Source: a virus. From it: 26,041 nucleotides of DNA. The notes under the pieces are model-generated. The model did no database searches, was not told where the DNA came from, and was given only the letters and a program-made list of their open reading frames with translations. Below, in pieces: positions 1-25,794 of this stretch. Position numbers and translations under genes: made by a program. Where the stretch lies: positions 1-26,041 of IMG/VR virus record IMGVR_UViG_3300017969_000120; one strand, written 5' to 3'. Each line of letters begins with the position of its first letter. Position 1 is the first letter of the stretch.

Positions 1-255
1 ATGTTCTTTTGGGCTTTAAAATCTAAAAATATAGAAGCTGGTGGTGGTTCTATCACTTACTCTAATAAAGTTTGGAGAGCTTGGAAGCTAAGACATAACA
101 TTCTTTATAGACTTCACTACAAGTGGGATAGACCTTACGGTATGGGTATTCACGCAGAAATACCTTACAGATGGACTATTAATCTTAAGTTTAAAGATAA
201 AGTCACATACAAGAGAGAAGAGGCTGTCAATAATGCTGTAGGATGGTTTGTATGA
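1..255 (+). CDS. Hypothetical protein, possibly 5'-truncated by window edge
   Basis: An open frame begins with ATG at the first base of the window and ends at TGA 253-255, giving 84 residues. Because the ATG is the first base, I cannot tell whether it is the true start. The product is rich in aromatic and basic residues (Trp, Tyr, Lys, Arg), and its end (INLKFKDKVTYKREEAVNNA) looks like a beta strand followed by a helix. No family is recognised. Its stop overlaps the ATG of the next gene (ATGA), which suggests translational coupling and supports it as a real gene. Confidence 0.55.
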   Translation: MFFWALKSKNIEAGGGSITYSNKVWRAWKLRHNILYRLHYKWDRPYGMGIHAEIPYRWTINLKFKDKVTYKREEAVNNAVGWFV

Positions 256-434
256 GAGAGTTTACAATACATTTTACAATTTCTGATATGGATGTCTTTC
301 CGTGTGAGTATGATGATGAAGATGCTGTTGATTGGGCTAGAGAGAGAGTTCATGAAAAGCTTAAAAAAGACGGAGTCAATGCTTATGATTTCGTATGTAC
401 AGTTAAGGAAAAAGTGGTGGAGGAAGAGGAATAA
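252..434 (+). CDS. Small acidic-tailed hypothetical protein
   Basis: A 60-residue protein if it starts at ATG 252, which overlaps the previous stop as ATGA. An in-frame ATG at 243 would add three residues, but 252 is the coupled start. The pattern is a beta strand (FTIHFTISDMDV), then a DDEDAVDWARERVHEKL helix, a second strand (FVCTVKEKV) and a run of glutamates at the C-terminus. The codons for that glutamate run form a GGAGG-type ribosome binding site for the next gene. No known family is recognised. The two genes downstream have a similar size and layout. Confidence 0.6.
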   Translation: MREFTIHFTISDMDVFPCEYDDEDAVDWARERVHEKLKKDGVNAYDFVCTVKEKVVEEEE

Positions 435-2920: not shown

Positions 2921-5419
2921 ATGGCTGAAGAAAAAAGTTTTTTTAAGCGAGCAGCAGAATACTTGCAAGCTCCACCACAAAGATTAACCCTCAAAAGAGG
3001 ACCACTTGACAAATATGAACAAGTTCAAGGTTCAGTTTGGGGATATAATACCCAATCTGGTTATTTTCCACAAAAACTAATTGATGAACTAGGTGATGGA
3101 CTCGGTAATTCAGCTGTAGTCGCATGTCTTAATGTATTGGCAACTTCTTTTGCTGAGCCAATGCTTAAAGTTTATAAAAAAACAGACCAAGGTAAAGCAG
3201 AAATTGTAAATCATCCATTAGAAGTTTTAATGCAAAGACCAAATGAATTTATCTCTGGTAACATTCTTTCTCACTATATAGTTACTTCATTATCTGCACA
3301 CGGTGATGCTTTCTTACTGAAAGTCAAAGACGGTCAAGGTAATGTTGTTCAGCTTGTCCCATTAATGCCTTCTTATGTAAAAGTAAGAGGTAACGAAAGA
3401 GAATTAATTACTCACTATGAATACCACGCTGTTCAAAAAAGTAATCAACTCAATGCAGACTATATAGAAATACCAAGAGAAAATATGGTTCACGTACGTC
3501 AAGGTATGGACCCAGACGACCATCGTAGAGGTTTTGCACCACTACGTTCAGTTATGAGAGAACTAGCTGGTGATGAAGCAGCTGGACAATTTTCCGTAGC
3601 TTTGTTGCACAATATGGCTGTTCCGGGAGTTATCTTAAGTCCTAAAGACGACACAATGGGTGGACCAAGTAGAGAAGAAGCTGAAGCAATTGCTCAGTCT
3701 TTCAAATCAAAATTCGCTGGTGCCAATAGAGGTTCACCAATGATTATGACTGGCTCTATGGATGTAGATGTAGTTTCATTTACACCAGAACAAATGAATT
3801 TAAAAACATTGAGAAGATTGCCAGAAGAGAGAGTTTCTTCTGTACTTGGAGTCCCAGCAATTCTTGCAGGGCTTGGTGCTGGTTTGGACGCAGCAACTTA
3901 CAACAATACGAAAGAATTAAGAGAGTTCTTTACAGAACAAAAAATGATTCCTATGTGGAGTGCAGTTGCTCAAGAAATTTCACACCAGTTATTACATGAT
4001 AATTTTGAAAAAGAAAACTATGAATATTTTTGTGCTTATGACTTAGACCAAGTTAGAGCACTAGCAAGCGATAAAAAAGACCAAGTATTAACAATGAACT
4101 CTGGTGTACAGGGTGGCTTTGTTACTGTTGGTGAAGCTAGAAGAGCTTTGGGACTTGACACTGACGATAGTCACGATGTATACCTTAGACCATTAAATAT
4201 GATTGCAGTGGCAGAAGGTGATACAGGGATTATGAACTCAACAAATGAGGAGCCCGTCCCTTCTGCAATTGCACAAGAAGAAGAAGAGGATGAAAAAGCT
4301 ACTTTAAATACATCTAGATTTCAACCAGAAGTTCGTAGAACTAAAAGAACTATTGGTAAAAGAAAACCTACAAAGAAAACAGTAACTATTGATTTACATA
4401 TGGAATTTGCTTCAGCAGAATCTGAGTTTGTTCCGATTGAATTGAAAGCTGCTCCGATATCAGCTAAGGTTAAAAAAGTATTACAAAAGAAAGTAGAAGA
4501 CCACAATGCAAAGAATCCAAAATATAGAGCAAGTTATGGAATGTTGGCAGCTGTCTTCAGACGAGGTGTTGGTGCCTATAGAACTAACCCAGCTTCAGTG
4601 CGAGGTAATGTTTCTTCAGCAACCCAGTGGGGAATAGCCAGAGTTAACGCCTTTTTGAAAGGATTAAAAGGTAAATTTCCAAGAACAGCTTTTGACCAAG
4701 ACTTACTTCCTAGTGGACATCCATTAAGTTCAAAAAAATCAGCTAAAGCAGCTTCAGTTAAAGTCGGAGATGCAGTTAGTTGGTCAATCAATAAAGACCC
4801 AGACCCACCTTCAACTGTTCATGGAATAGTTACTTCTGTAAAAGAAGAAGAAGCAACAATGGTAGTTTGGGCAATTATGGAAGATGGCTCTCATAAAAAA
4901 ACTGACAGAAGTGTCACTCAACCAATTTCTAAATTAAAAAAAATTAAAGATTGGCGTAAAGAGTCTAAAGCTCCAAAAGATATAACAAATTTTCCTAGCT
5001 CTGGAGATAATCAAAAAATTAGTTTGAGTAATTCAAACTTTAAACAATTTCCAGATAAAGCATATGTAGACAACTTAAAAAAGAATTACCCAAAAATATG
5101 GAGAAGAGCTGGTACCGGTGGTAACCCTCCTACTTCATTTACAGGTAATGATGCCTACAGAAACTGGACAAAGTACAAAGCAGGAGATAGAAGTGCTTCA
5201 GTACTTAGCTGGGTAAAAAGACGAGAACGTTTTATGTCTCGTCATCAAGGAAACACTCGTTTGAATGGAATTATTGCTGTCATGAAATGGGGTGGCGTAA
5301 CGAAATCTGGCGTATCTGCAATGAAGAAAATTGTCAATGAACAGAAAAAAAAGGAAGATGAACGACGTAAGAAGGCTATTAACCTAATTACCGGGAACAC
5401 TGACGATTTGACAGATTAG
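2921..5419 (+). CDS. Portal protein with long multi-domain C-terminal extension
   Basis: An 832-residue protein. Residues 1 to about 440 match an HK97/SPP1-type portal (VVACLNVLATSFAEPMLKVY, a PNEF segment, HVRQGMDPDDHRRGFAPLRS, VLGVPAILAGL, and a DLDQVRALASDK clip/stem end). Such portals usually stop at 400-500 residues. This one continues through an acidic and then basic linker (about 440-510) into three further segments. Residues about 513-608 form a helical domain (YRASYGMLAAVFRRGVGAY to SGHP). Residues about 613-680 (VKVGDAVSWSI to ISKLKKI) resemble the Hva1 Tudor/SH3-like fold. Residues about 690-812 run from FPSSGDNQKISLSN to a helical basic end. The frame is continuous. The portal call is firm; the roles of the extra domains (head interior, DNA or scaffold contact) are inferred. 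Confidence 0.92.
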   Translation: MAEEKSFFKRAAEYLQAPPQRLTLKRGPLDKYEQVQGSVWGYNTQSGYFPQKLIDELGDGLGNSAVVACLNVLATSFAEPMLKVYKKTDQGKAEIVNHPLEVLMQRPNEFISGNILSHYIVTSLSAHGDAFLLKVKDGQGNVVQLVPLMPSYVKVRGNERELITHYEYHAVQKSNQLNADYIEIPRENMVHVRQGMDPDDHRRGFAPLRSVMRELAGDEAAGQFSVALLHNMAVPGVILSPKDDTMGGPSREEAEAIAQSFKSKFAGANRGSPMIMTGSMDVDVVSFTPEQMNLKTLRRLPEERVSSVLGVPAILAGLGAGLDAATYNNTKELREFFTEQKMIPMWSAVAQEISHQLLHDNFEKENYEYFCAYDLDQVRALASDKKDQVLTMNSGVQGGFVTVGEARRALGLDTDDSHDVYLRPLNMIAVAEGDTGIMNSTNEEPVPSAIAQEEEEDEKATLNTSRFQPEVRRTKRTIGKRKPTKKTVTIDLHMEFASAESEFVPIELKAAPISAKVKKVLQKKVEDHNAKNPKYRASYGMLAAVFRRGVGAYRTNPASVRGNVSSATQWGIARVNAFLKGLKGKFPRTAFDQDLLPSGHPLSSKKSAKAASVKVGDAVSWSINKDPDPPSTVHGIVTSVKEEEATMVVWAIMEDGSHKKTDRSVTQPISKLKKIKDWRKESKAPKDITNFPSSGDNQKISLSNSNFKQFPDKAYVDNLKKNYPKIWRRAGTGGNPPTSFTGNDAYRNWTKYKAGDRSASVLSWVKRRERFMSRHQGNTRLNGIIAVMKWGGVTKSGVSAMKKIVNEQKKKEDERRKKAINLITGNTDDLTD

Positions 5420-9301: not shown

Positions 9302-10045
9302 ATGAAAATTCGAGGAATTGAATTTAGAACAGATATTGAGGGGTTAGAAAAGACACATCCACCTCAATCATCAAACTTTTATATGCCAAAATGGTTCAAA
9401 ACAATGCCATCTATAATAGAACAGCAACCAGAACCTAAACCACCTAATTATTTTGGAAAAATAGGAGAAACTGCAAAACAATTCTATTCATTTACTGTAA
9501 AAAAATGTCCTGCCATTGTAGATTTCTTAACTCAAGGATATGTAATACCTTTTTGGTGCGATATGCTTATACAAAGAGACCATATGATGCTTGAGTGGGA
9601 CAATAAAGGTTTCCCATCTAAACTAGAATTTCACGATGGACAACAAGTAACACATTGGAAGTTTAAATCTACAGATTTTAAGACACCAGTTAAGTTTGAA
9701 AACCCTTGGCGTATATATACACCTAAAGGATATTCTGTAGCATTCTTTCAACCGGAATATCAGTTTGAAACAAGGTTTTCTGTATTACCGGGTGTAGTAG
9801 AAACTGATAATTATCATCAAGTACACTTCCCAGCAATCATTCACGACACACAAGATTTTGTAATTAAAGCTGGAACACCTTTCATGCAAGTTTTTCCTTT
9901 CAAAAGAAAACAACTTGATTTAGTTGTGGGTCAAATGACACAAGCTATGAAAGATGAAGAATTAGAAAATAATGTATTTTTGAAGCAATACTTTAAAGAA
10001 TCATATAGAAAGCTGTTAAAATGGAGAGGCAATGGCAAGATATGA
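9302..10045 (+). CDS. Conserved hypothetical protein, copy 1 of a duplicated gene
   Basis: A 247-residue soluble protein with no membrane segment, preceded by a GGGAGG ribosome binding site. By eye about half of its positions match the 256-residue product at 25024. Shared blocks are PPNYFGKIG, CPAI, an IP-x-W segment, LIQR, LEWDNK, NPWRIYTP, GYSV, QFE-x-RF, VLPG, VETD, a GTPF segment and PFKR. The order of the last motifs recalls DUF6065-type proteins as I remember them, but I could not check this. Trp, Tyr and Pro are abundant. It lies within the structural block, so a virion or assembly role is possible. Function unknown. Confidence 0.75.
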   Translation: MKIRGIEFRTDIEGLEKTHPPQSSNFYMPKWFKTMPSIIEQQPEPKPPNYFGKIGETAKQFYSFTVKKCPAIVDFLTQGYVIPFWCDMLIQRDHMMLEWDNKGFPSKLEFHDGQQVTHWKFKSTDFKTPVKFENPWRIYTPKGYSVAFFQPEYQFETRFSVLPGVVETDNYHQVHFPAIIHDTQDFVIKAGTPFMQVFPFKRKQLDLVVGQMTQAMKDEELENNVFLKQYFKESYRKLLKWRGNGKI

Positions 10046-10271
10046 TTATAAATGTTCAAAGTGTGAATATGTGTTCGAGGTAACGCACTCAATACACGAC
10101 GAACCAAAGGTGAAATGTGAAAAATGTAAAGCAATTTCTACTAGACAAATTAGCAATAAAGTATATCTTTACGGAACTGTTGGTATTGATTGGAATACTA
10201 ACCCTAATGGTGCTTCTGAATCGATGAAGAAAAAAGCTAGTAAAGCTGCCAAAAGAAAACAACAGTTTTAA
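10032..10271 (+). CDS. FmdB-like zinc ribbon protein
   Basis: A 79-residue protein opening with MARYDYKCSKCEYVFEV, the signature of the FmdB/CxxC_CxxC family of small putative regulators. Cys pairs C8/C11 and C29/C32 would bind one zinc. The last 25 residues are basic (KKKASKAAKRKQQF), compatible with nucleic-acid binding. The start lies inside the preceding gene with GGAGAGG upstream. It ends convergently with the minus-strand SET gene, their stop codons overlapping by 4 bases, and no terminator separates them. Its target is unknown. Confidence 0.85.
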   Translation: MARYDYKCSKCEYVFEVTHSIHDEPKVKCEKCKAISTRQISNKVYLYGTVGIDWNTNPNGASESMKKKASKAAKRKQQF

Positions 10272-13750: not shown

Positions 13751-14203
13751 ATGGTTCAGAATTTACCAGACGGAGAAATATTAGCTAGAACTTGGGCTTT
13801 AAGTAAAACAAGCATTACTGACTTAGTTCAACAAAAAATTGCAACAAGACTTCCTACTGGTTCAGATATGCCTTTTATTGTTATTCAAATGCTTGGTGGA
13901 AGTCCACTAGGTGGAGAGTCTTTAATATACCAAGCTCAACTTGTAGTAGATTTTTATGCAGGTAAATATGCAACTAACTCAACCAAAGGACAGCCAGATT
14001 ATTCTTCTGCATTCTCTTTAGGTAACACTTTCATAAGAGAAGCTTTTGACCACGCACCTACAAAACTAACTAGTGTAGGTGGAGAGGTTGGAATGGTTCA
14101 CGGTTTTGATTCAATATCTGGTCTTGGAAGAGTAGAGGAACCCGAGCTCGGTTTGGCACGCTATACTTGTGATATGGTAATGATTTATGGAGCGATATCG
14201 TGA
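13751..14203 (+). CDS. Tail terminator / tail completion protein
   Basis: A 150-residue protein in the gene-order slot between the neck protein and the major tail protein. The pattern fits tail terminators of the DUF3168/gpU type: an N-terminal helix (EILARTWALSKTSITDLVQQ), a strand with MPFIVIQMLGG, a strand YQAQLVVDFYAG, a helix AFSLGNTFIREAFDHAP and a last strand ARYTCDMVMIYG. It would cap the tail tube and join it to the head. Sequence match is moderate, so the name rests partly on position. Confidence 0.7.
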   Translation: MVQNLPDGEILARTWALSKTSITDLVQQKIATRLPTGSDMPFIVIQMLGGSPLGGESLIYQAQLVVDFYAGKYATNSTKGQPDYSSAFSLGNTFIREAFDHAPTKLTSVGGEVGMVHGFDSISGLGRVEEPELGLARYTCDMVMIYGAIS

Positions 14204-14490
14204 AATATATAAAAGTTAATCCATATATAAGAGTTTTTGATTCCATTAGGGATGAAAAACTTGATGTAATTTTTGACAAAATGAACTGGGTCGAAGTAAA
14301 AGACTCTGATTGGAACAGGCTGAAAGAAGCTCAAACCAAACAGGGAGATTTACTACTACCTAATTTTGTTGAAAAGACAGATGGTATGGGTGAAATTAAA
14401 AACTTTACTGCTGCTGAAAAAGTAGAAGAGGAAGTTTTAGATGATGAGTGGTTCGACAATCCTGCTGACACAGAAGTAGAAGAGGAATAA
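14200..14490 (+). CDS. Small acidic hypothetical protein
   Basis: A 96-residue protein with a GTG start overlapping the previous stop (GTGA). The N-terminus KYIKVNPYIRVFDSI is followed by a helix and a strongly acidic C-terminal third (KVEEEVLDDEWFDNPADTEV, then EEE). It sits just before the major tail protein. The KYIKV opening echoes the 84-aa protein at 8125. No family is recognised. Confidence 0.65.
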   Translation: MKYIKVNPYIRVFDSIRDEKLDVIFDKMNWVEVKDSDWNRLKEAQTKQGDLLLPNFVEKTDGMGEIKNFTAAEKVEEEVLDDEWFDNPADTEVEEE

Positions 14491-15150: not shown

Positions 15151-15507
15151 ATGACAGACAAATTTAAAGACTTCGATGAAGCAATCAGAGAAGTAGACGA
15201 CGCAAAGATTACTTTCAAGGTAGCTGGGGAGACATTCGATTGTCCTGCTCAGCTACCAGCGAAAGTTGTCTTAACGCAATTAAAAATGCAAAATGAGCTC
15301 GGAGGCATTGACCAAAAAGACATTGGTGAGTGGCTCAGAATGATTATTGGAGAAGAAACTTTCGACAAGCTTTTGGAAAAAAACATATCTTGGACAATCT
15401 TAGAAGAACTTCTAGGTTGGCTATTAGTCCAATATGGAATTGTTCAATCAGCTGAAGAATTAGAAAGCTCTGATAGTGAAGGGGGAGAAGAAGAAGACCC
15501 AAAATAG
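15151..15507 (+). CDS. Tail assembly chaperone, gpG-like
   Basis: A 118-residue acidic protein with GGAGG upstream. FKVAGETFDCPAQLPAKVVL is the usual opening strand and helix start, followed by IGEWLRMIIGEETFDKLLE and ILEELLGWLLVQYGI, typical of gpG-type chaperones that coat the tape measure before tube assembly. The tail ESSDSEGGEEEDPK ends at TAG 15505-15507, immediately after a CCCAAAA slippery heptamer. Terminated product 118 residues; predicted frameshifted product 217 residues. Confidence 0.85.
   Translation: MTDKFKDFDEAIREVDDAKITFKVAGETFDCPAQLPAKVVLTQLKMQNELGGIDQKDIGEWLRMIIGEETFDKLLEKNISWTILEELLGWLLVQYGIVQSAEELESSDSEGGEEEDPK
15481..15504 (+). promoter_or_regulatory. Programmed -1 ribosomal frameshift signal
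   Basis: CCCAAAA at 15498-15504 is in the zero-frame phase C CCA AAA, followed at once by TAG. GGGGGAG at 15481-15487 is a Shine-Dalgarno-like element 10 bases upstream, the arrangement that stimulates the dnaX shift. The -1 frame is open from 15480 to 15800. No strong downstream hairpin is visible. Confidence 0.8.
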
Positions 15508-15803
15508 ACATCACTATTGAGGATATTTTGGAAAGATGGTCTGCAGTTGAATCTGATTTTCAACGCTTCTTTAATCTTCAACCATTAGAACTTTCTTGGA
15601 GAAGGTTCAAAAATTTAATATTCAGTCTGGTCTCTCAAGAGTCTTCTTTCTATGCCCCGTACCTTACTGAGTATATAGAGCAATCTAGAGAGGAAATAAA
15701 TTCACAATATTCATCCGATAAAGATAATCGTGTAAAGATTAACTTAGACACGGCATTAGATGAATTAGGTGGAGCAAAAGAGAGTGTAAGTTTTAATGAG
15801 TAA
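15504..15803 (+). CDS. Tail assembly chaperone, T-part of gpG-T frameshift fusion
   Basis: This frame is entered by -1 slippage at CCCAAAA and continues as IDITIEDILERWSAVESDFQ, then RFFNLQPLELSWRRFKNLIF, to TAA at 15803. This adds 99 residues to the gpG part. The ERW ... FQRFF ... LELSWRRF pattern is typical of the T domain in actinobacteriophage tail chaperones. The only in-frame initiation codon near the front is TTG 15528, without a clear ribosome binding site, so independent translation is unlikely. The gene end overlaps the tape measure ATG at 15796. T domains recruit the tube protein during assembly. Confidence 0.82.
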   Translation: MDITIEDILERWSAVESDFQRFFNLQPLELSWRRFKNLIFSLVSQESSFYAPYLTEYIEQSREEINSQYSSDKDNRVKINLDTALDELGGAKESVSFNE

Positions 15804-18800
15804 AATTAGCTTAGGTGATTTAGTAGTTAACATACAGGGTAATACCTCTGGTATTAACAATGCTGTAGCTGCTGCTCAAATGAAAGCTACTAGTGCTTTT
15901 AAAAAGGTAGGTTCTGCTGCTTCCGGTATGATTACTGGTGCAGTTGTTGCAACTTTATCAGCAGTTGCTATCGCAATGGCAGCTGGTGCTAAATCTGCAA
16001 TAGATTTCGAAGCAGCATTCGCTGGTGTTAGGAAAACTTTAAATGCTACTGACGACCAGTTCAAACAAGTATCTGATGAATTAATAAATATGGCAAGGTT
16101 CTTGCCACAGACAGCTACAGAACTTGCTGGTATTGCACAAGTTGCTGGTCAGTTAGGAGTTGCAGTTGATGATGTTTCCAAGTTTACCGAAGTAATAGCT
16201 AAATTAGGTGGAGCAACAGACTTAGCTGGTGAAATGGGTGCTACTTCAATGGCTAGATTTATGAAAGTCATTGGTCAACCAATCAAAAACACTGAAGCCT
16301 TTGCAAACGTATTAGTTGAATTAGGTAACAATACTGCTACAACAGAATCTGAAATAATTCAGTTAGCTCTTAACTTTGGTGCTTTAGGTTCACAAGTAGG
16401 TCTTACTGGTGAAGAAATATTAGCATTCTCAGCAGCAATGAGAGAGATGGGACAACCTGCTGCAGCTGGTGCAACTGCACTTAATAAATTATTTACAAAC
16501 TTAAATAAAGCTGTATTAGGTGAAGGTGGTCTTGCAGAGTTTGCAGATATCGCTGGTATGGGAATGCTTGAATTCCAAGAACTAGCTGAAACGAGTATGG
16601 CTGCTGCTGCTCAAGCAGTATTAGAAGGTTTGAATGATATGACTGCTAATGGTAAAGACCAAGTTGCAGCGTTAGACACCGTAGGATTAGCAAGAGACAG
16701 AGTTTCTCGTGCATTAATTTCTATGTCTGCAAATGAAGAAGGTTTAGCAAAAGCAAGAAAAATAGCTAACGAAGAGCTTATGAAACAAGCTGCGTTAGAC
16801 AAAGAGTTTGCAGAAAGACAAAATACTGTTGCAGGACAAATGGACATTCTTAAGTCCAAGATAAACTCTTTTGGTATAAGAATGGGTGAATTCTTATTAC
16901 CAGTAATACGTAAAATTGTAGCAGCCTTAGGTAGGTTCTTCGATGGTCTATTTTTCATAGTTCAAGCTTCTAAAAATTTCATAGATGCTATAAAAGCTAT
17001 TAAAGACGGTATACATCCAGCTGTTAAAGGTGGTGGTGCATTAGCACTTCTAATAGCTGCTTTAAGCAAGATTAAATCAATTTTTAGTTTTGTAATTAAC
17101 CAAATTAAAAAATTTACAGGACTGTTTACTAAAGCAGCTCCAAAAGTAGGTATATTTGCTAAAGCATTTGGATTTGTAGGCAAAATGGCTTTAGGTGCTG
17201 TAGGTTCAATTGTTGCATTCGCACCAGCTATTGCTAAATTTGGCGATAAGCAAGCACTTATAGACGACTTTGCAGGTAGTGTAGAAAAATTGACAGATAA
17301 ATTTAATGTACTTAAAACACAAGGAGTAGGTGGATTAGACCAAATTACAGACAAAGCATTAAACGATATGTTTGAAGGGATGAAAGAGGGTGACCTTGGA
17401 AAAGTTCTTAAGGACTTGTTTGATGCAGGTGAATTAGATTCAGATGATGTTAAAAGCCTTGCAGAGTTTGGTAAAAAAATTGGTGAAGATATAATGACAG
17501 GCTTGAAAGATGAAATTGGTGTTGGAGAAGCAGCCTTTGGTAGTTTGACTCAAGGAGATGTTCAAGCACAAATGAAAATTTTAGAAGATGCTGGTCAAAC
17601 TAATAATGAAATATATCGTGGATTAGTAAAACTACAAGATGCTTTTAAAAGTAATCAGAAAGATTTAATTGACCTCGCACACGAAGAACTTATGGCTAAA
17701 TTAGCAATTGCTGAAGCTGGTCAAGATTCAAGAACCAATCAAGAAGAATTAATTTACTTACTTCGTAATGGTGTAGATGCAGCAATATTGCAAGCAGAAG
17801 GTTTTGAACAAGCTATTAAAACTTCTGCAGGATTAGAAAAGTTTGCAAGAGAATTTGGTATGGCTGTAGAAGGAATACCTGCACTTATAGACATATTATT
17901 CCCACCAGCTAAAGACCCTGTACAAGAAGCTTTAATCCAACTTAAAGAAGATGCTGCAGCTTTTAAACAAATGGTTGCAGATGTATTTGCACCAACAAAA
18001 GCACAGTTTGAATTAGAGTTTGCTGAAATGGATTTAGCAGATGCTCATCAAGAGCATGCAGATTTACATTCAGAATTAGGTGACCTACACGCAGAAGATG
18101 CTCAATTACAACAAGATTTAGTAGATTTACAAACTGCCGAATTACTTACTCATGAAGAAAAATTAGACATTGCTGAAAAGCAATTAGAAATACAAGAGTT
18201 ACAGAATAAGCATGCTACTGAAGCTGCAATGACTCTTGAAGAAACTGTACAACAACAAGATTTAATTAATGAAGCTTTAGAAATAGAAGATAGACTTCGT
18301 AGAGGTTTGTCATTATCTGCTAATGACCAATTACGTAGAGAAAAGCTTCGTAAAGATTTAAGAAGAGTAGAACTAGCTGCTGCTCAAGGTTCTTTAGAGT
18401 TTGCTGATTTAGAAGCTGAGGCAATCAGAGAGAACATAGCTTCTTTAGAGAAAAATGCAGTTACAGAAACAGATGCAATTCTTAAACGTAGAAAAGCTGC
18501 TGATATTGAAGGTAAAGCTAATTTACGTCGTGAAAAAGAAAAAGAAGAAATTCTTAAGGCACAAAAAGAAATCAATGAAATTAATTTAGAAGCTACTGCT
18601 CGTCGTAATGAAGAAATTATTGAAATAGAAAAACGTCGTATACAAATTGAAGAGAGATTAACTGAGATACCTAGAGAAATAAAAGAAGCTCACTATGGGA
18701 TTCACAAAGCACAACAAGAAGTGGTTAATCGTACTGCAGATATACAAATAGGATTTATGGAAATGCGTTCTGTCGGTGAACTTGAAATGAAACAGCTTGC

Positions 18801-19266
18801 AGAAGCAATAGGTATGCCTATGGACAAACTTGACGGAATGATGACTTTAATGAATCACTTAAGGGTTGAATCTTCAGATTTTATAAACGGTATAATTGAA
18901 AGAGCAATTCCACCTACTACTCCAATTTTGCCGGGTTCCCAATCAGATGCAGCTAGAAGAAACTATTCGTTCTTAGGAGGTGGAGCTGCTAATAAACCAT
19001 TCTTAAGACACGGTGGTGGTCGTTTCAAGCCGGGTCAAAATTATATCGTTGGAGAATTCGGACCAGAAATGTTGAAAGCATCACCCGGTGGTGGTGGTCA
19101 AATTACACCTATGACAGATGGTTCTAGAGGTGAAACTACCAACAATATAACTTTAAATATTACAGGATTACCTACAGACCCAATTGCTGCTAGAAAAATA
19201 GCACAAAATATTCAAAGAGAATTAACTAAACTTGAAAGAGAAGGAAGGTCTGGGGTTGTTAGGTAA
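15796..19266 (+). CDS. Tape measure protein
   Basis: A 1156-residue protein, the ruler for tail length (at about 0.15 nm per residue, roughly 170 nm). Residues about 70-250 form the TP901-type core (AIDFEAAFAGVRKTLNATDD, LPQTATELAGIAQVAGQLGV). Hydrophobic stretches lie near residues 45-65, 410-435 and 455-480, as expected for a protein ejected to cross the host membrane. Residues about 730-990 are long charged coiled coil (DAHQEHADLHSELGDLHAED and onward). The C-terminus has the common Gly-rich YIVGEFGPEMLKAS motif. No lysozyme or peptidase domain is evident. Its start overlaps the chaperone stop. Confidence 0.95.
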   Translation: MSKISLGDLVVNIQGNTSGINNAVAAAQMKATSAFKKVGSAASGMITGAVVATLSAVAIAMAAGAKSAIDFEAAFAGVRKTLNATDDQFKQVSDELINMARFLPQTATELAGIAQVAGQLGVAVDDVSKFTEVIAKLGGATDLAGEMGATSMARFMKVIGQPIKNTEAFANVLVELGNNTATTESEIIQLALNFGALGSQVGLTGEEILAFSAAMREMGQPAAAGATALNKLFTNLNKAVLGEGGLAEFADIAGMGMLEFQELAETSMAAAAQAVLEGLNDMTANGKDQVAALDTVGLARDRVSRALISMSANEEGLAKARKIANEELMKQAALDKEFAERQNTVAGQMDILKSKINSFGIRMGEFLLPVIRKIVAALGRFFDGLFFIVQASKNFIDAIKAIKDGIHPAVKGGGALALLIAALSKIKSIFSFVINQIKKFTGLFTKAAPKVGIFAKAFGFVGKMALGAVGSIVAFAPAIAKFGDKQALIDDFAGSVEKLTDKFNVLKTQGVGGLDQITDKALNDMFEGMKEGDLGKVLKDLFDAGELDSDDVKSLAEFGKKIGEDIMTGLKDEIGVGEAAFGSLTQGDVQAQMKILEDAGQTNNEIYRGLVKLQDAFKSNQKDLIDLAHEELMAKLAIAEAGQDSRTNQEELIYLLRNGVDAAILQAEGFEQAIKTSAGLEKFAREFGMAVEGIPALIDILFPPAKDPVQEALIQLKEDAAAFKQMVADVFAPTKAQFELEFAEMDLADAHQEHADLHSELGDLHAEDAQLQQDLVDLQTAELLTHEEKLDIAEKQLEIQELQNKHATEAAMTLEETVQQQDLINEALEIEDRLRRGLSLSANDQLRREKLRKDLRRVELAAAQGSLEFADLEAEAIRENIASLEKNAVTETDAILKRRKAADIEGKANLRREKEKEEILKAQKEINEINLEATARRNEEIIEIEKRRIQIEERLTEIPREIKEAHYGIHKAQQEVVNRTADIQIGFMEMRSVGELEMKQLAEAIGMPMDKLDGMMTLMNHLRVESSDFINGIIERAIPPTTPILPGSQSDAARRNYSFLGGGAANKPFLRHGGGRFKPGQNYIVGEFGPEMLKASPGGGGQITPMTDGSRGETTNNITLNITGLPTDPIAARKIAQNIQRELTKLEREGRSGVVR

Positions 19267-19269
19267 AAT

Positions 19270-19350
19270 ATGAATTATTCACACGCTAACTTTCACGCAC
19301 AACACATAGCTACTCACGACAACGATTATGTTGATTTGGAAGAAGAATGA
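19270..19350 (+). CDS. 26-residue micro-ORF after the tape measure
   Basis: ATG 19270 to TGA 19348-19350 encodes 26 residues rich in His (five) and ending in EEE (MNYSHANFHAQHIATHDNDY, then VDLEEE). It starts three bases after the tape measure stop, and its stop overlaps the next ATG as ATGA. The codons GAAGAAGA before that ATG could act as ribosome binding site. Its place in a chain of overlapping starts and stops argues that it is translated, but it is too short to be sure. Confidence 0.4.
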   Translation: MNYSHANFHAQHIATHDNDYVDLEEE

Positions 19351-19469
19351 TTGACAATAAAGATTCAAATATATTAAAAGCTTGTCAATCTGACTTTTCC
19401 TGTGGTAATTATTTTTATCATACAAAATATAGGTATTGTGAACAATGTAGAGCAAAGGATTATTGCTAA
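19347..19469 (+). CDS. 40-residue Cys-rich zinc-ribbon-like micro-protein
   Basis: ATG 19347 overlaps the upstream stop (ATGA) and TAA 19467-19469 overlaps the next ATG (TAATG). The 40-residue product has five cysteines: C13, C19, C31, C34 (CEQC) and C40. The spacing (C-x5-C ... C-x2-C) could bind one zinc ion. It would be a very small metal-binding protein between the tape measure and the distal tail gene, perhaps an assembly factor. No family is recognised. Confidence 0.55.
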   Translation: MIDNKDSNILKACQSDFSCGNYFYHTKYRYCEQCRAKDYC

Positions 19470-20725
19470 TGGCTAATCAAGTAACAGTAGGTAGAATGAG
19501 TTTCACTTCACCTAGAAGTATTAGTATAAGCTCTGTCCAAGATGGTTCAAGAAATTCTGTTGACAGAACAATAAGCATGTCTGGTTCATTCGTTGTTGAT
19601 TCAATTGATGAAGGTAAATCTTTAAGAGATGAATTAATTTCTATGGGTAACTCTAATTTAACTTTTCCTTTTACTTGGACTGGTGATGAGTTAATTGAGG
19701 GTTATTGTAGATTAGGTTCTACTAGTGTAGACAATGCTAAATTAGCAACAGGATTATTTAAATACTCTATTGAGTTGCAAGTTAAAGGTAGAACTTCAGA
19801 AATGATATTTGAATCAAATATGACTGGTTCTTTATTAACAAATTCACACAGCATAACTTCAACTACATATGGTGCAATGCATGCTTTACCAGTTAATGCT
19901 TTAAACTATTTTCATGCTGAAGCTCCAGTAGATGCAATAAGGGCTTCTAGTGAAGGTAATGTTGCAGTTTATTATGATACTAACTTAAGAAGTAGTGCTG
20001 CTCAATGGATTGTAGAGCCAGCAGATTACTACAAAGGTGCAGCAAGAATCAGTATAGACAACACAATTATGACTGGTTACTTAGCAAAAAACCAACCTCA
20101 AGGGGTGACACTTTCAAATGGTATAATAAGATTAACCTCTGGCAATCAGTCAAACGAATCAAGATTTACTATAGAGTTTTATGATAACGGAGTCTGGGCT
20201 AGTTCCAGAGAGATATCATTTAATACTGGTGCCTCCAAAACAGAATGGAATGTTTGGAAAACAGTACAAATACTTAGAAATGAACCACAGGAATGTGTCG
20301 TACGTTTCACTACTTATTCTGACAGTAATGGAGATGGGCGACTTGTAGTAGATGCCACTATTAAACGAGGAGCCCATCACATAGGACTAGTTACTAACCA
20401 AGGTCCTACTTCAGATAGAGCTGCAAACTCTAGAATAAATTTGCAAGTGACAAGTAATCACGATACTTTCACAGATGATACTGGGTATATGGTTGAAGAT
20501 ACGGCTGATAGTGATGGACAGAAGTTCATTGTAGGCTCTCCACAAGGATACACAGCAGATGTAGCTGATGGTGAAGACTTAATTTATGTAAGTAACAATC
20601 AGTTTAAAACATTTGTTGGTTATGTTTACAATGCAAGTTCTCCTAATACTATTGACACAGCAGATGCAGTAAGAGACCAATACTTGGAAGGAATATACGA
20701 AAACGTTAGACTAGTGAGGGCATAA
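19469..20725 (+). CDS. Distal tail (Dit-like) minor tail protein
   Basis: A 418-residue protein directly after the tape measure block, the normal Dit position. The first 120 residues (VGRMSFTSPRSISISSVQDG, DRTISMSGSFVVDSIDEGKS, FPFTWTGDELIEGYCRLGS, and a FKYSIELQVKG strand) fit the N-terminal ring domain of distal tail proteins. Residues about 120-390 are beta-rich with a likely carbohydrate-binding or jelly-roll insertion (RFTIEFYDNGVWASSREISF). ATG 19469 is chosen because it overlaps the upstream stop; TTG 19463 would be two codons earlier. It overlaps the next gene by one base. Confidence 0.7.
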   Translation: MANQVTVGRMSFTSPRSISISSVQDGSRNSVDRTISMSGSFVVDSIDEGKSLRDELISMGNSNLTFPFTWTGDELIEGYCRLGSTSVDNAKLATGLFKYSIELQVKGRTSEMIFESNMTGSLLTNSHSITSTTYGAMHALPVNALNYFHAEAPVDAIRASSEGNVAVYYDTNLRSSAAQWIVEPADYYKGAARISIDNTIMTGYLAKNQPQGVTLSNGIIRLTSGNQSNESRFTIEFYDNGVWASSREISFNTGASKTEWNVWKTVQILRNEPQECVVRFTTYSDSNGDGRLVVDATIKRGAHHIGLVTNQGPTSDRAANSRINLQVTSNHDTFTDDTGYMVEDTADSDGQKFIVGSPQGYTADVADGEDLIYVSNNQFKTFVGYVYNASSPNTIDTADAVRDQYLEGIYENVRLVRA

Positions 20726-23700
20726 TGGCAATTACAGAAAGATTAATGGCACCGGGTAACTTTACTGTAAACTTCAGTCAAGAATTTACACCTACTGCAA
20801 TAATAGAATCAATAAAAGAATGGGGACATATTGTTGTCACCCCACAAGAAATAGATGTAGACACACTTAACGATAGTGACATACTTAGTTCATCAAGATA
20901 CACAGGAATAGTTTTAAACAGAACACTTGAAGAAGGTGTTGTAACTGTAGCTGGTCAAGGATTAGAACTCTATCTGGGTGATGGTTCTGGTAAAGGAATG
21001 GTCATTGCTGAATCCAATAATATTGGAAAAGTAAGAACATACACAGACGTAACTTTATCAGAAGCATTATTCAACTCTTCAGTTGTAGATGGTAAACCAT
21101 TTGGAATAATGAGAGATGAAGCTGGAAACTTACAAGCTATACAACAAGGTACAATTAGCGACCCAGCAACTCTTTATACTGGTCAACACTTCGTTGAAAC
21201 TGCTTTATCTGCATTAAAATTTATATCAGAAATACTCAATACAGAATATAGAGTTAATCCAAATGGAACTATTGACGCTGGTCCTTCATCAAATTTATTC
21301 GTAGGAGTAGGAAGTAATGAACCTACTTCAGTAGTTGTTAAAAGTGCTTATGGTGAAGACCCAGAATATGAAGGTGTAACACCAAGTGGTTTAAGAAGTG
21401 AGTTCGATGCTACTGATTGGGTTTCTAGAGTTGATTTTACTGGAGAAGTTGGTTATTTCAATATACCTACTGATGTAGCTGGTGAAGCTAATTTATCATC
21501 AATACCATATAAAGATTTACACGGAAATGATTTAAAACGTGTTGGTTTAGTACAAGAACCAGAAGCTCCAGAAGAACACTTGAACACTAGAGCACAATCA
21601 ATGCTAAATGAGCTTGCAAGAGTTAAGAAGATACTTAACCTTGACCTAACTCAGTATGAAGTATCTGGTGATATGAAAGTTGGAGACTTTGTATATGCTT
21701 TTGACCCAGATGTAGGTTTTGTTGACACAGACGAAGATGCTGCAGCTGAATCAAGAGATAAATACGAAGTAACTTTTAGAGGTCAAACAATAACACCAGC
21801 TAAAGTTCGTGTTACAGGTTTAACTTTCCCAATTATGTCCGGTATGGGTGTTTACTTTAGAGATAAAGATGGAAACTACACAGATTTAACAGAGTATGTA
21901 CAATTTGAATCTGGTGCTACACAAGTAGAACTAGGAGATGTACTTAGGTCAATAAGAGACGATTTAAGATTTAATGAGTTTTCACTTTCAAGACAAAATG
22001 CTGGTGTATTCTCAATCCCAGATTTACCAGCTACACCAACATTACAATCCGGTACATACTTAGACAGTACTGGTGATTCAAAAGGTTTTATTAGAATTAC
22101 TTTCAATAGACCTCTAAACGAAGATGGTTCACAGATAACAGACGGAAGTCATTACAAAGTTCGTTACAAGAAAACAACTGATAACGAATACTCATATATG
22201 AATTTCCCTTATACAAATGCATCAAGTGAATCTTTAATACTTCAAGATTTAACAGTTGGAGTTAGCTACCAAATAGGTGTTGCAACAGTAGACCGTTCTG
22301 GATTTAAAAAGATGTCTTCTTATGACGGAAGTGGTGAAGATTTATATACAGATTCAGTTAGTGTAAATGCTAATTTTGCATCTAACGCTGTTATTGAAAT
22401 AGAGAAAGATGGTCAAGCACCGTCTAAACCTAAACAAGCTCAATCAATAGCTGCTGGTCCATTAAGAGTTCAAGTTACACATTATCTTGGTAAAGATGGT
22501 CTTGATGGTGGTGGAAATCCCTTTGGAGACTTTACATTAGAAGGTGACTTAGACCATTTAGATGTACACGCAGTAACACAAAGTGGTAATGTTCAAGATT
22601 TTACTGTCGCTGAATCAAATAAAATTGGTGAAGTAAGGGTAACTTCTGGAAACTTATTACAAGCAATACCTGTTGTAGGAACTATGGAGTTAGAAGACTC
22701 ACAAGATTACTACTTTAGAATAGTAGCCGTTGACAAGTCTGGAAACGCATCAGACCCTTCTGACGGTCAATCAGCTGTAGCTAATTTAATTGAAGAAGCA
22801 AACATTGCTGATGCAAACATAACAGAAGCTAAAATCGGAACTGCTGCTATAACAACTGCAAAAATTGCAGACGCAACTATAACAGATGCAAAGATACAAG
22901 ATTTATCAGCAGATAAAATTACTAGTGGAAGCATTATCGGTGGTGAAATAACTGTTGGTGGAGTAGCTAATACAAGTGGATTTATAAAATCATATAACTA
23001 CTCAAGTGGTTCTGCTGGTTGGATTATAAATGCTGACGGTAGTGCAGAGTTTGATGCTGCTGTTATCAGAGGAACATTAGATGCATCTCAAATAAATGTA
23101 ACAAACTTAGATGCTGCAAATATAAGTACTGGAACTTTAAATGTAGACAGACTACCAACTATTACAACTTCAGAAATAAACTTTGACGCAGGAGATATTG
23201 GTGGTGCTGATAGTTCAAATATTGTTGCTACTATAAATACTTCATCAGAGGGACTACAAATTAATGCAGCAAAAGTAAATTTAAGTGGGAAGTTAAATGT
23301 AACTAATCCTTCTATAACTTCCGGTAATATTGGTGGAATTAGTATTACTGGTTCATATATTGAATCTTCTAATTATGCATCTTCTGGAGGTACTGATGGA
23401 TTTAGAATAAACTCTGACGGTACAGCAATATTTGAAGATGTTACTGTTAGAGGAAATATCAGTGGAACAATTAATGCAGGTACAACTGCTACTGCACAGC
23501 TAACTTTAGGAGCAAATGGTAAAATAAGAACTTCTTCGGGTACTTCATTCATTGAACTCAATTCAACAGATGTAAACACTATTGAATTTAAAAAAAGTGG
23601 GGCAACATTCGGAACCATTGATGATGTTGGTGACGGTGTAAGTTCTGGTTTCACTGTTCGTTCCGGTACACAAGAGGCATTAATATTTCAAAGTCCGGGA

Positions 23701-24651
23701 ACTCCGGGAATTGTCTATAGAGGTAATGTACATAATTTTGTTAGTGGTGCAAGTAATAGTTTATCTGGTCAATTACAATTGGGTGGTGACCCCGGTAATG
23801 CTTCTGGTCAATTACTTAAAACTAACACAAATAATGTTTATTGGGGTAATGCTTCTTCTGCTGGTGTAAATGCAATTTCTGGTGACGTAAACTTCAACTT
23901 TAACTCAAATACTGGTACCGTTATTATGGGTTCAAATCATACACACAGTCAAAACAACTTAGTGTTTACAAATAACAATAGTTTTGTCAATGCTGTAAAC
24001 CACTCAAACCACAATGTTCATAATCATAACAATACAAACCTAACTAACTTAGGTAATAACAATGTTATTACTACTGGAAATCAAAATACTAATCACAAAC
24101 ACGGTAGCATTGCACATAATGTTAGTTATGGAACTGGAAACTTAGATTCTAACCACATACAGTTTTATCATCCGGGTACTTGGACAGCTAATAATAATGC
24201 AACAGCACATCACGGTAATACCTATGCATCTTTTGTACACCAGCATATAAACCCGTTTACTCACGATTCAAGATTATTAAATGTAAATGCAAACACAGTA
24301 CCGGGTTTGAACGCTGTAGTTAGAATGAACCCAGTAACAGCTAACTTTTCTTCACAATACAAAGAAAGATTACTAGAAGAAGCGTGGGCACTTCCAGAGT
24401 TAAATCAAAAAACATATAGGTTAACCCATCAAGACGTAAAGCAGGCACTAGAAGATGACGGTGTAGACACTTCTGATATAGCTATGATTATTGACAATGT
24501 TGCTTACGCAAATGATTTAGCACCAGAGTTAGATGACAATATGAAAGGTTTATTTGAAGGAGAAATTGATGCACTATTAATACAGTCAATAAAAGATTTA
24601 AATGATAAAATAGCTTTACTAGAAGATAGAATTGCAGAGCTGGAGGCGTAA
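20725..24651 (+). CDS. Tail tip / tail-associated fibre protein with FN3 domains
   Basis: A 1308-residue protein that probably forms the tail tip hub and fibre that contacts the host. Residues 1 to about 430 are hub-like (SALKFISEILNTEYRVNPNG is typical of actinophage minor tail proteins). About 436-545 and 568-690 look like fibronectin type III domains (VGVSYQIGVATVDRSGF, DYYFRIVAVDKSG). About 690-737 is a heptad-like collar (ADANITEAKIGTAAITTAKI). Two similar blocks near 752 and 877 carry NADGSAEFDAAVIRG and NSDGTAIFEDVTVRG. Residues 1071-1176 are His/Asn-rich with four HxH motifs. The last 30 residues form a coiled coil. Confidence 0.85.
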   Translation: MAITERLMAPGNFTVNFSQEFTPTAIIESIKEWGHIVVTPQEIDVDTLNDSDILSSSRYTGIVLNRTLEEGVVTVAGQGLELYLGDGSGKGMVIAESNNIGKVRTYTDVTLSEALFNSSVVDGKPFGIMRDEAGNLQAIQQGTISDPATLYTGQHFVETALSALKFISEILNTEYRVNPNGTIDAGPSSNLFVGVGSNEPTSVVVKSAYGEDPEYEGVTPSGLRSEFDATDWVSRVDFTGEVGYFNIPTDVAGEANLSSIPYKDLHGNDLKRVGLVQEPEAPEEHLNTRAQSMLNELARVKKILNLDLTQYEVSGDMKVGDFVYAFDPDVGFVDTDEDAAAESRDKYEVTFRGQTITPAKVRVTGLTFPIMSGMGVYFRDKDGNYTDLTEYVQFESGATQVELGDVLRSIRDDLRFNEFSLSRQNAGVFSIPDLPATPTLQSGTYLDSTGDSKGFIRITFNRPLNEDGSQITDGSHYKVRYKKTTDNEYSYMNFPYTNASSESLILQDLTVGVSYQIGVATVDRSGFKKMSSYDGSGEDLYTDSVSVNANFASNAVIEIEKDGQAPSKPKQAQSIAAGPLRVQVTHYLGKDGLDGGGNPFGDFTLEGDLDHLDVHAVTQSGNVQDFTVAESNKIGEVRVTSGNLLQAIPVVGTMELEDSQDYYFRIVAVDKSGNASDPSDGQSAVANLIEEANIADANITEAKIGTAAITTAKIADATITDAKIQDLSADKITSGSIIGGEITVGGVANTSGFIKSYNYSSGSAGWIINADGSAEFDAAVIRGTLDASQINVTNLDAANISTGTLNVDRLPTITTSEINFDAGDIGGADSSNIVATINTSSEGLQINAAKVNLSGKLNVTNPSITSGNIGGISITGSYIESSNYASSGGTDGFRINSDGTAIFEDVTVRGNISGTINAGTTATAQLTLGANGKIRTSSGTSFIELNSTDVNTIEFKKSGATFGTIDDVGDGVSSGFTVRSGTQEALIFQSPGTPGIVYRGNVHNFVSGASNSLSGQLQLGGDPGNASGQLLKTNTNNVYWGNASSAGVNAISGDVNFNFNSNTGTVIMGSNHTHSQNNLVFTNNNSFVNAVNHSNHNVHNHNNTNLTNLGNNNVITTGNQNTNHKHGSIAHNVSYGTGNLDSNHIQFYHPGTWTANNNATAHHGNTYASFVHQHINPFTHDSRLLNVNANTVPGLNAVVRMNPVTANFSSQYKERLLEEAWALPELNQKTYRLTHQDVKQALEDDGVDTSDIAMIIDNVAYANDLAPELDDNMKGLFEGEIDALLIQSIKDLNDKIALLEDRIAELEA

Positions 24652-24839
24652 TGACTTATTCATTTTTTGACCCTAATGAAGCTAGTTTAGAATTATACGA
24701 AATAAAAATAAAGAATTTAGAAGAACTACACTATATAGAGACTCAAAAAGGATTAGAAGAAAATCACGTCCTTGACCAAATATCTGCAGAATTGGAAAGT
24801 ATGAAGCAAGCTTACATCGACGCTGGTGGTACATTATGA
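24651..24839 (+). CDS. Small helical coiled-coil hypothetical protein
   Basis: A 62-residue charged protein predicted mostly helical (LELYEIKIKNLEELHYIETQ, then VLDQISAELESMKQAY). The ATG overlaps the tail-tip stop (TAATG), and its own stop overlaps the next ATG (ATGA). It may be a chaperone or a small coiled-coil part of the tail tip. It resembles the following gene in size and composition. No family is recognised. Confidence 0.65.
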   Translation: MTYSFFDPNEASLELYEIKIKNLEELHYIETQKGLEENHVLDQISAELESMKQAYIDAGGTL

Positions 24840-25027
24840 ATGAATTAAATGAAATTTATGATGCTATAAGCGTTTCTACTTTAAAAATACAAAATATGCA
24901 AGAATTATTATCAGCTATGGAAGAAGAAGAACAAACAGGTGATAATCTAAATCAAATACAAAATTCTATAACTGCAGAACAAGAAGTCCTTTCTGGTTTA
25001 GAAGCCCAAAGGGATGCTTTAGAATGA
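24836..25027 (+). CDS. Small helical coiled-coil hypothetical protein
   Basis: A 63-residue acidic helical protein (YDAISVSTLKIQNMQELLSA, QNSITAEQEVLSGLEAQRDA) with heptad-like spacing of Leu and Ile. Its ATG overlaps the previous stop and its stop overlaps the next ATG, both as ATGA. Together with the 62-aa gene it forms a pair of small helical proteins between the fibre gene and the second duplicated gene. Function unknown. Confidence 0.65.
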   Translation: MNELNEIYDAISVSTLKIQNMQELLSAMEEEEQTGDNLNQIQNSITAEQEVLSGLEAQRDALE

Positions 25028-25794
25028 AGTATTCTTTGGGAGGTAAACAATTTATTGAATTTAAATCTGATGTAAAAGGTATTGAAGATTTTGCACCAGT
25101 AAAACCATCTAAATACTACTTGCCAAGGTGGTTTAGAGAAATGGAAGATTTTATACCAACACCACCTAACGAACAAGGACCACCTAATTATTTTGGAAAA
25201 ATTGGTGATATCGCAAAAAAACATTCTGGTGGGACAGTAAAGAGATGCCCAGCGATTATAGATTTACTTACTGAAGGTTTTATTATTCCTATGTGGTCAG
25301 ACTTTTTAATACAAAGAAACGATGAATTATTAGAATGGGATAACAAAAACTTTCCTTATGGAATTGAATTTCACGGTAAAGACCAAATAGCTGGTTGGAA
25401 TTTAAAAAAAACAGACTTTCCAGAAGGAGTTAAATTTACTAATCCTTGGAGAATATATACACCACCGGGTTATTCGGTATTGTTTATGCCACCTATTTAC
25501 CAATTTGAAAAAAGATTTACAGTATTACCGGGAATAGTAGAAACTGATGCATATCATCATATTAACTTTCCTAGTATCTGGCACACAAAAAAAGACGCTA
25601 TAATAGAGAGAGGCACACCATTCATCCAAGTGATTCCTTTTAAAAGAGATAACTGGGATTTTGATGTATCACAAATGACACAAACTGACATAGAGAACGA
25701 TGCGAGGGAAAAGAATGAGCTTATAAGTAAGTTCAAAAATAGTTATAGAAATATCGTAGGACGTTTAAATGGCAGACATAATAAACGAAGGTGA
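25024..25794 (+). CDS. Conserved hypothetical protein, copy 2 of a duplicated gene
   Basis: A 256-residue paralogue of the product at 9302, with the same order of blocks: PPNYFGKIG, RCPAI, IIP-x-W, LIQR, LLEWDNK, GIEFHG, NPWRIYTPPGYSV, QFEKRF, VLPGIVETD, GTPFIQV and PFKR. The C-terminus is basic and differs from copy 1. No membrane segment, signal peptide or catalytic signature is recognised; a resemblance to DUF6065 is from memory only. Translational coupling with upstream (ATGA) and downstream genes places it in the tail-fibre operon, which fits a virion or fibre-assembly role. Confidence 0.75.
   Translation: MKYSLGGKQFIEFKSDVKGIEDFAPVKPSKYYLPRWFREMEDFIPTPPNEQGPPNYFGKIGDIAKKHSGGTVKRCPAIIDLLTEGFIIPMWSDFLIQRNDELLEWDNKNFPYGIEFHGKDQIAGWNLKKTDFPEGVKFTNPWRIYTPPGYSVLFMPPIYQFEKRFTVLPGIVETDAYHHINFPSIWHTKKDAIIERGTPFIQVIPFKRDNWDFDVSQMTQTDIENDAREKNELISKFKNSYRNIVGRLNGRHNKRR

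Follow-up and report, generated by a model that had tools for sequence, protein, structure and literature searches.

The window analysed here, a stretch of viral DNA 26,041 nucleotides long, carries on its plus strand a tape measure protein gene (15796..19266; tail length tape measure PHROG, best E 8e-64) and, further along, a tail gene (19469..20725) whose product has an N-terminal IGxLxFTSP-type motif. From the tape measure stop to the ATG of this tail gene at 19469 there is a gap of 202 nt (the slot), and the sequence and its ORF list show that it is filled by two micro-genes on the plus strand. B (19270..19350) encodes a His-rich peptide of 26 aa, MNYSHANFHAQHIATHDNDYVDLEEE, and C (19347..19469) encodes a Cys-rich, single zinc-finger-like protein of 40 aa, MIDNKDSNILKACQSDFSCGNYFYHTKYRYCEQCRAKDYC. 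The tape measure stop and the start of B are 3 bases apart, B and C overlap by 4 nt (ATGA), and C overlaps the tail gene by 1 nt (TAATG). The first-pass annotation had described two coupled micro-ORFs filling the gap with precisely these ATGA and TAATG junctions, and this is borne out, the exact gap being 202 nt. Its naming of the neighbours as tape measure and distal tail genes holds for the tape measure, through the PHROG match; the product of 19469-20725 has no match in PHROG, Pfam or NCBIfam, so that "distal tail" describes its position only. The N-terminal motif of this product is common to its relatives, and the neighbouring gene (20725-24651) matches minor-tail and tail-tip PHROGs.

When the 202 nt of the gap were resampled 40000 times under a first-order Markov model, ATG-started ORFs of at least 20 codons tiled it end to end in only 29 cases, which by itself makes chance an unlikely origin of the arrangement. 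With a G+C content of 0.302 (C 0.26, B 0.37), the slot lies below the tape measure gene (0.365), and 13 of 276 stretches of equal length (202 nt) have a G+C content as low. I found neither a plus-strand promoter-like site nor a terminator-like site inside the slot. The default minimum gene length of Prodigal is 90 nt, and B, at 81 nt, would presumably be skipped. The first-pass annotation was silent on the last cysteine of C (C40), on exchange of the cassette, on fusion of B to C, on B outside the slot, and on the Shine-Dalgarno sequence inside C.

Several other features of the window deserve mention. Two overlapping-frame ORFs before the tape measure gene (15151-15803) resemble a frameshifted tail assembly chaperone pair, with no slip site established. 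The genes at 9302-10045 and 25024-25794 are paralogous (129 of 246 aligned residues identical), and the first matches phrog_7084, of unknown function. At 10032-10271 a zinc-ribbon protein of 79 aa is encoded (Zn_ribbon_8 in Pfam, E 3.7e-11; FmdB-like PHROG). A second variable region spans approximately 23210-25017: the nucleotide similarity that the window shares with L001, L003 and others (L numbers denote related viral loci) breaks off at 23210, within the tail-tip gene, and returns near 25020-25770.

B and C are both genuine coding genes under purifying selection. Checked for conservation and selection in relatives, as the first-pass annotation had proposed, C gives an in-frame pN/pS of 0.356 across 25 distinct sequences of equal length and 0.218 for 62 close pairs, these and all other pN/pS values being uncorrected and pooled over mutually non-independent pairs. 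Its two shifted frames give 1.148 and 1.521 and contain stops in nearly all sequences. The C set admitted only sequences of exactly 120 nt (26 of 30, of which 25 were distinct); L002, L004, L045 and L047 were set aside for length differences, as were the C loci found later. The 15-codon core of B, in a set of 11 distinct copies made without fused or later-found copies, has a pN/pS of 0.07, and its substitutions fall at codon positions 1, 2 and 3 in the numbers 20, 37 and 293. The grounds on which the micro-ORFs were to be doubted, namely stops or frame changes in relatives or the lack of a conserved cysteine pattern, did not materialize: C13, C19, C31 and C34 are invariant in 28 of 28 aligned rows, an invariance that is partly built in because the relatives were collected partly by cysteine patterns. 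The conservation seen in the pN/pS values is stronger evidence than the chance figure for tiling.

The end of C also carries a second signal. AAGGA, the Shine-Dalgarno sequence of the next tail gene, lies inside codons 37-38 of C (19455..19459, plus strand), as codon usage reveals. The end [KR][DE]xC, missing from 8 of the 50 distinct C sequences, is shared by the 42 sequences used here; 39 of them have AAG and 3 have AGG as codon 37, and the other Lys codons in the same 42 sequences are AAA 182 times and AAG 15 times. Codons 37-38 thereby read AAGGA or AGGGA about 9 bases ahead of the tail gene's ATG. Two constraints thus act on the end of C, whose conservation is in part unrelated to the protein. 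Within B, the purine-rich stretch ggaagaaga (19338..19346, plus strand), which falls in its EEE codons, may be the ribosome-binding site of C. ORFs ending in EEE or EEEE like B also occur elsewhere in the window (243-434, 434-643, 640-831, 871-1539 and 14200-14490), and where such ORFs overlap the next gene their Glu codons lie at its expected ribosome-binding site. Overlapping gene pairs of this kind are described as translationally coupled in published accounts (PMC6728339, PMC10666635).

Might the micro-ORFs then be mainly translational devices, coupled tiny ORFs that control how much of the next tail protein is made, their peptides being by-products? The ATGA and TAATG junctions, the Shine-Dalgarno sequence embedded in C and the terminal Glu codons of B, which form a purine-rich stretch ahead of the next start, would all suit such a role, but it leaves the selection on amino acids (pN/pS 0.07 and 0.36) and the conserved cysteines unexplained, and I consider it very unlikely. 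Regulation as the sole function is rejected on the pN/pS of B and C.

The cysteines of window C are spaced C13-x5-C19-x11-C31-x2-C34-x5-C40, the four invariant ones (C13 to C34) being encoded within 19383..19448 (plus strand). In alignment A4 (28 rows) R35 is invariant together with those four cysteines, and C40 is absent only in L049. In the pooled set of 50 distinct nucleotide sequences, which includes the window and some sequences from near-identical phages, 8 are without C40, the first pair is C-x2-C in 6, and L119 has His as the fourth ligand. The loss of C40, the C-x2-C variants and the His of L119 fit a four-ligand metal site, with the family pattern C-x(2-5)-C...C-x2-[C/H], better than a set of five cysteines, and judging from this pattern C is likely to bind metal. 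Four conserved Cys/His ligands, the mark of a zinc protein, are present in C, though this finding is partly circular in a collection made by Cys pattern. The zinc-ribbon-like pattern reported by the first-pass annotation therefore needs to be divided: the four-ligand set is conserved, but C is not a canonical zinc ribbon, for which two C-x2-C type knuckles are typical. The first pair in the window is C-x5-C, C-x2-C occurs twice in only 6 of 50 distinct relatives, and no Pfam zinc-ribbon model passes its cut-off.

Searches of Pfam, PHROGs, NCBIfam, PADLOC and PDB returned nothing significant for B or C. Window C has no Pfam match, and 28 members of its family have only sub-threshold ones (best E 0.0051). 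The closest likeness is to the single-zinc fingers of the A20 and CGNR type, which share with C the spacing C-x(2-5)-C-[GS]...C-x2-C; the A20 spacing itself is C-x(2-4)-C-x11-C-x2-C. Unlike those fingers, no C member passes the Pfam cut-off: zf-A20 (PF01754) had no match in the window record, among the Pfam matches of the 28 members or in five short variants, and zf-CGNR (PF11706) matched two of the 28 members, weakly and below its cut-off (best E 0.012). Two AlphaFold models, one of them of the fused B-C form described below, have mean pLDDT values of 65.5 and 65.4 and, at this low confidence, predict two short strands and a helix beginning at the second cysteine pair. Foldseek found nothing significant for either model (best E 5.0 and 1.9), and VIA-align gave no match with a Z of 2 or more. 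The fused model has 12 Foldseek matches, all of them insignificant; 7 are zinc-finger entries, judged by title or by the usual meaning of the title, and the 12 include A20 fingers and a DUF1470 protein, a family that carries the CGNR finger.

To place B and C in a wider context, relatives were gathered from viral contigs: 10 of the next tail gene in a single-sequence search and 27 with an alignment, and 28 C loci, rising to 41 with a second alignment, many of them on the same contigs. The slot holds B and C in the window, L012 and L050, A and C in L001 and L030, C alone in L014 and L017, E-B-C in L019, and A-B-C-D in L028. Here A is an ORF of 130-167 aa with a hydrophobic stretch and a coiled-coil-like part, D is 45-53 aa and E 25-36 aa. 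I was unable to identify any relative of the slot DNA, the tail gene, the fused ORF or A in cultured phages, and the single cultured-phage matches to C (E 7) and to a B-type peptide (E 8) are chance matches. Distant matches to the tape measure protein in 370 records and to the terminase in 1461 do not place the phage. In bacterial genomes the C alignment A6 led to 95 pattern stretches, none of which was confirmed. Literature naming the B or C families was not found in searches that were unspecific to them, small-protein catalogues lying outside their scope.

The contents of the slot change independently of its flanks, and B and C are exchanged. Between the window and L001 the flanking blocks have 93% and 96% nucleotide identity and the drop is confined to the slot; pS is 0.254 in the last 150 tape measure codons, 0.600 in C and 0.036 in the next tail gene. 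Between L014 and L015, C has a pS of 0.078 and the tail gene one of 0.546. The C core of L012 is identical to that of the window at 26 of 28 residues (93%) and its tail gene at 156 of 404 (39%), and the C nearest to the window's by full length, that of L076, is identical at 35 of 40 residues, with 268 of 416 in the tail gene. Since the divergences of C and its flanks disagree, the history of C is separate from theirs. Accelerated evolution of C in place of exchange is ruled out because its synonymous divergence jumps too. Furthermore, B is missing at the same place in close relatives, L001 and L003, although their flanks are 87-96% identical, and C is absent from 4 of 27 tail-gene loci (L006, L007, L008 and L010, where D stands alone); absence of this kind is characteristic of phage morons.

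Such exchange across diverged phages would also be produced by a selfish or gene-transfer passenger, for which the slot would simply be a place, lying between conserved flanks, where recombination is frequent; any benefit would then be unrelated to metal binding, and either small or neutral for host range. Recombination at conserved ends is suggested by L003, where GATAA is common to the end of the tape measure gene and the start of C. The lasting purifying selection, however, implies a useful protein, and I give this explanation little credence. Replacement of a cassette between nearly identical tail flanks points to selection on what the cassette contains.

B is not tied to the tail. Its core motif, H[IKR]ATHDN[DE]YV, was matched in 33 viral stretches, and a strictly tail-slot gene is ruled out by the 10 of these that lie elsewhere: B precedes an SNase-family gene in L139 and L140 and a DUF5675 gene in L134 (by Pfam; L135 and L137 are similar by eye), stands amid other late genes in L126, L129, L132 and L141, and is found also in L121. 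In L139 (6629-6808) there is, in addition, a 59-aa ORF ending in SSQANFHQQYHIGWEL, which resembles the first half of B and is without the THDN half. In bacterial genome contigs the pattern occurred in one stretch, in an ORF without resemblance outside the pattern, which was taken as chance. B is fused to C as one ATG-started ORF of 53 aa in L004 and L009; a fused frame is also present in L002 and L005, where a GTG start inside the end of the tape measure gene is needed, and L047 has a fused ORF with a degenerate B part.

The best explanation, in my view plausible while falling somewhat short of probable, is that B and C are moron-like late accessory micro-genes exchanged through a fixed slot, with C a zinc finger that serves as a protein-binding adaptor. 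From the finger-like pattern of C, the lack of co-variation with the tail genes, the relatives that are without C and the context in L049, I infer that C binds zinc and acts on a protein of the host or of a rival phage. In L049 a 733-aa ORF and short hydrophobic ORFs come first, A and then two small ORFs follow, and E, B and C lead on to a 65-aa ORF and a ferredoxin gene (Fer4_15, E 2.2e-14), the only one of these ORFs with a Pfam match; E, B and C (3897-4632) are near neighbours of this small gene. PADLOC found no match for B or C, and the analysis turned up no target in the host or in defence.

The strongest counter-argument is the position of C. Among the 50 distinct C sequences, the tail gene follows directly on 44 and is separated from 5 by one small ORF, and only one C (L049, the same as L121) lies elsewhere, so that 49 of 50 are in the tail slot, which is tighter than expected without a link to the tail. 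C is also nearly standard equipment, being present in 23 of 27 tail-gene loci when the short variants in L067, L068 and L075 are counted, and the slot is without a promoter or terminator of its own. This near-exclusive place is the reason for retaining the idea that C serves tail morphogenesis as a small zinc protein, either a chaperone or a tip component, at the junction of the tape measure C-terminus with the tail protein that follows; the constant position of C would then reflect co-translation with its partners. The retention of the N-terminal motif of the tail gene beside C, among relatives otherwise diverged, would agree with it, whereas the lack of co-variation between C and its neighbours, the 4 loci without C and the one family C outside the slot all argue the other way. 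On balance a morphogenesis factor seems possible but rather unlikely.

On the accessory reading, uncultured tailed phages would swap a pool of small late-expressed genes through the slot that separates the tape measure gene from the tail gene after it. C would fold round one zinc ion as a minimal finger and, inside the infected cell, serve as an adaptor that binds another protein, its target belonging to the host or a competing phage and not being a necessary part of the tail, and B, a short His-motif peptide, would act with C, as the fusions suggest, or alone. With its last codons each cassette would provide the ribosome-binding site for the gene that follows and so keep the operon translated, and, as I propose, cassettes could change without shutting off the tail gene.

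Like phage morons, B and C are small accessory genes among late genes and are present in some relatives only. A classic moron, by definition, has its own promoter and terminator, neither of which was seen in the B/C slot, and B and C further differ from known morons in being overlapping-frame micro-cassettes of 26-40 aa. Phage small proteins, of which Fremin et al. 2022 reportedly give a catalogue, are comparable as small conserved genes from uncultured phage genomes. Among known morons, HK97 gp15 serves in superinfection exclusion. Another, the 83-residue product Tab of the JBD26 late operon, is reported to block tail assembly via the tape measure protein, and a counter-protein (anti-Tab) is encoded beside it (PMC10884400); genes for tail-assembly interference are described as carried mostly by phages (PMC11364771). 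A defence-related role for B and C would therefore have precedent, and I claim no relation to Tab or to the tail-assembly interference genes.

At this point, what can be said is that two conserved families, small enough for annotation to miss, sit inside a very conserved operon of tailed phages. The slot offers a ready list of exchangeable micro-genes (A-E) that are candidate phage effectors, and the 40-residue putative finger is a minimal and tractable target for structural and interaction work. A more general proposal, which I regard as doubtful, is that one-zinc fingers of 31-45 residues and an 11-residue His motif belong to a shared pool of minimal, metal-binding and host-directed effector peptides that circulate among uncultured tailed phages as plug-in micro-cassettes and bring along the ribosome-binding site for the gene after them. 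If this were true, the tail operon could take up cassettes without losing expression of the tail gene.
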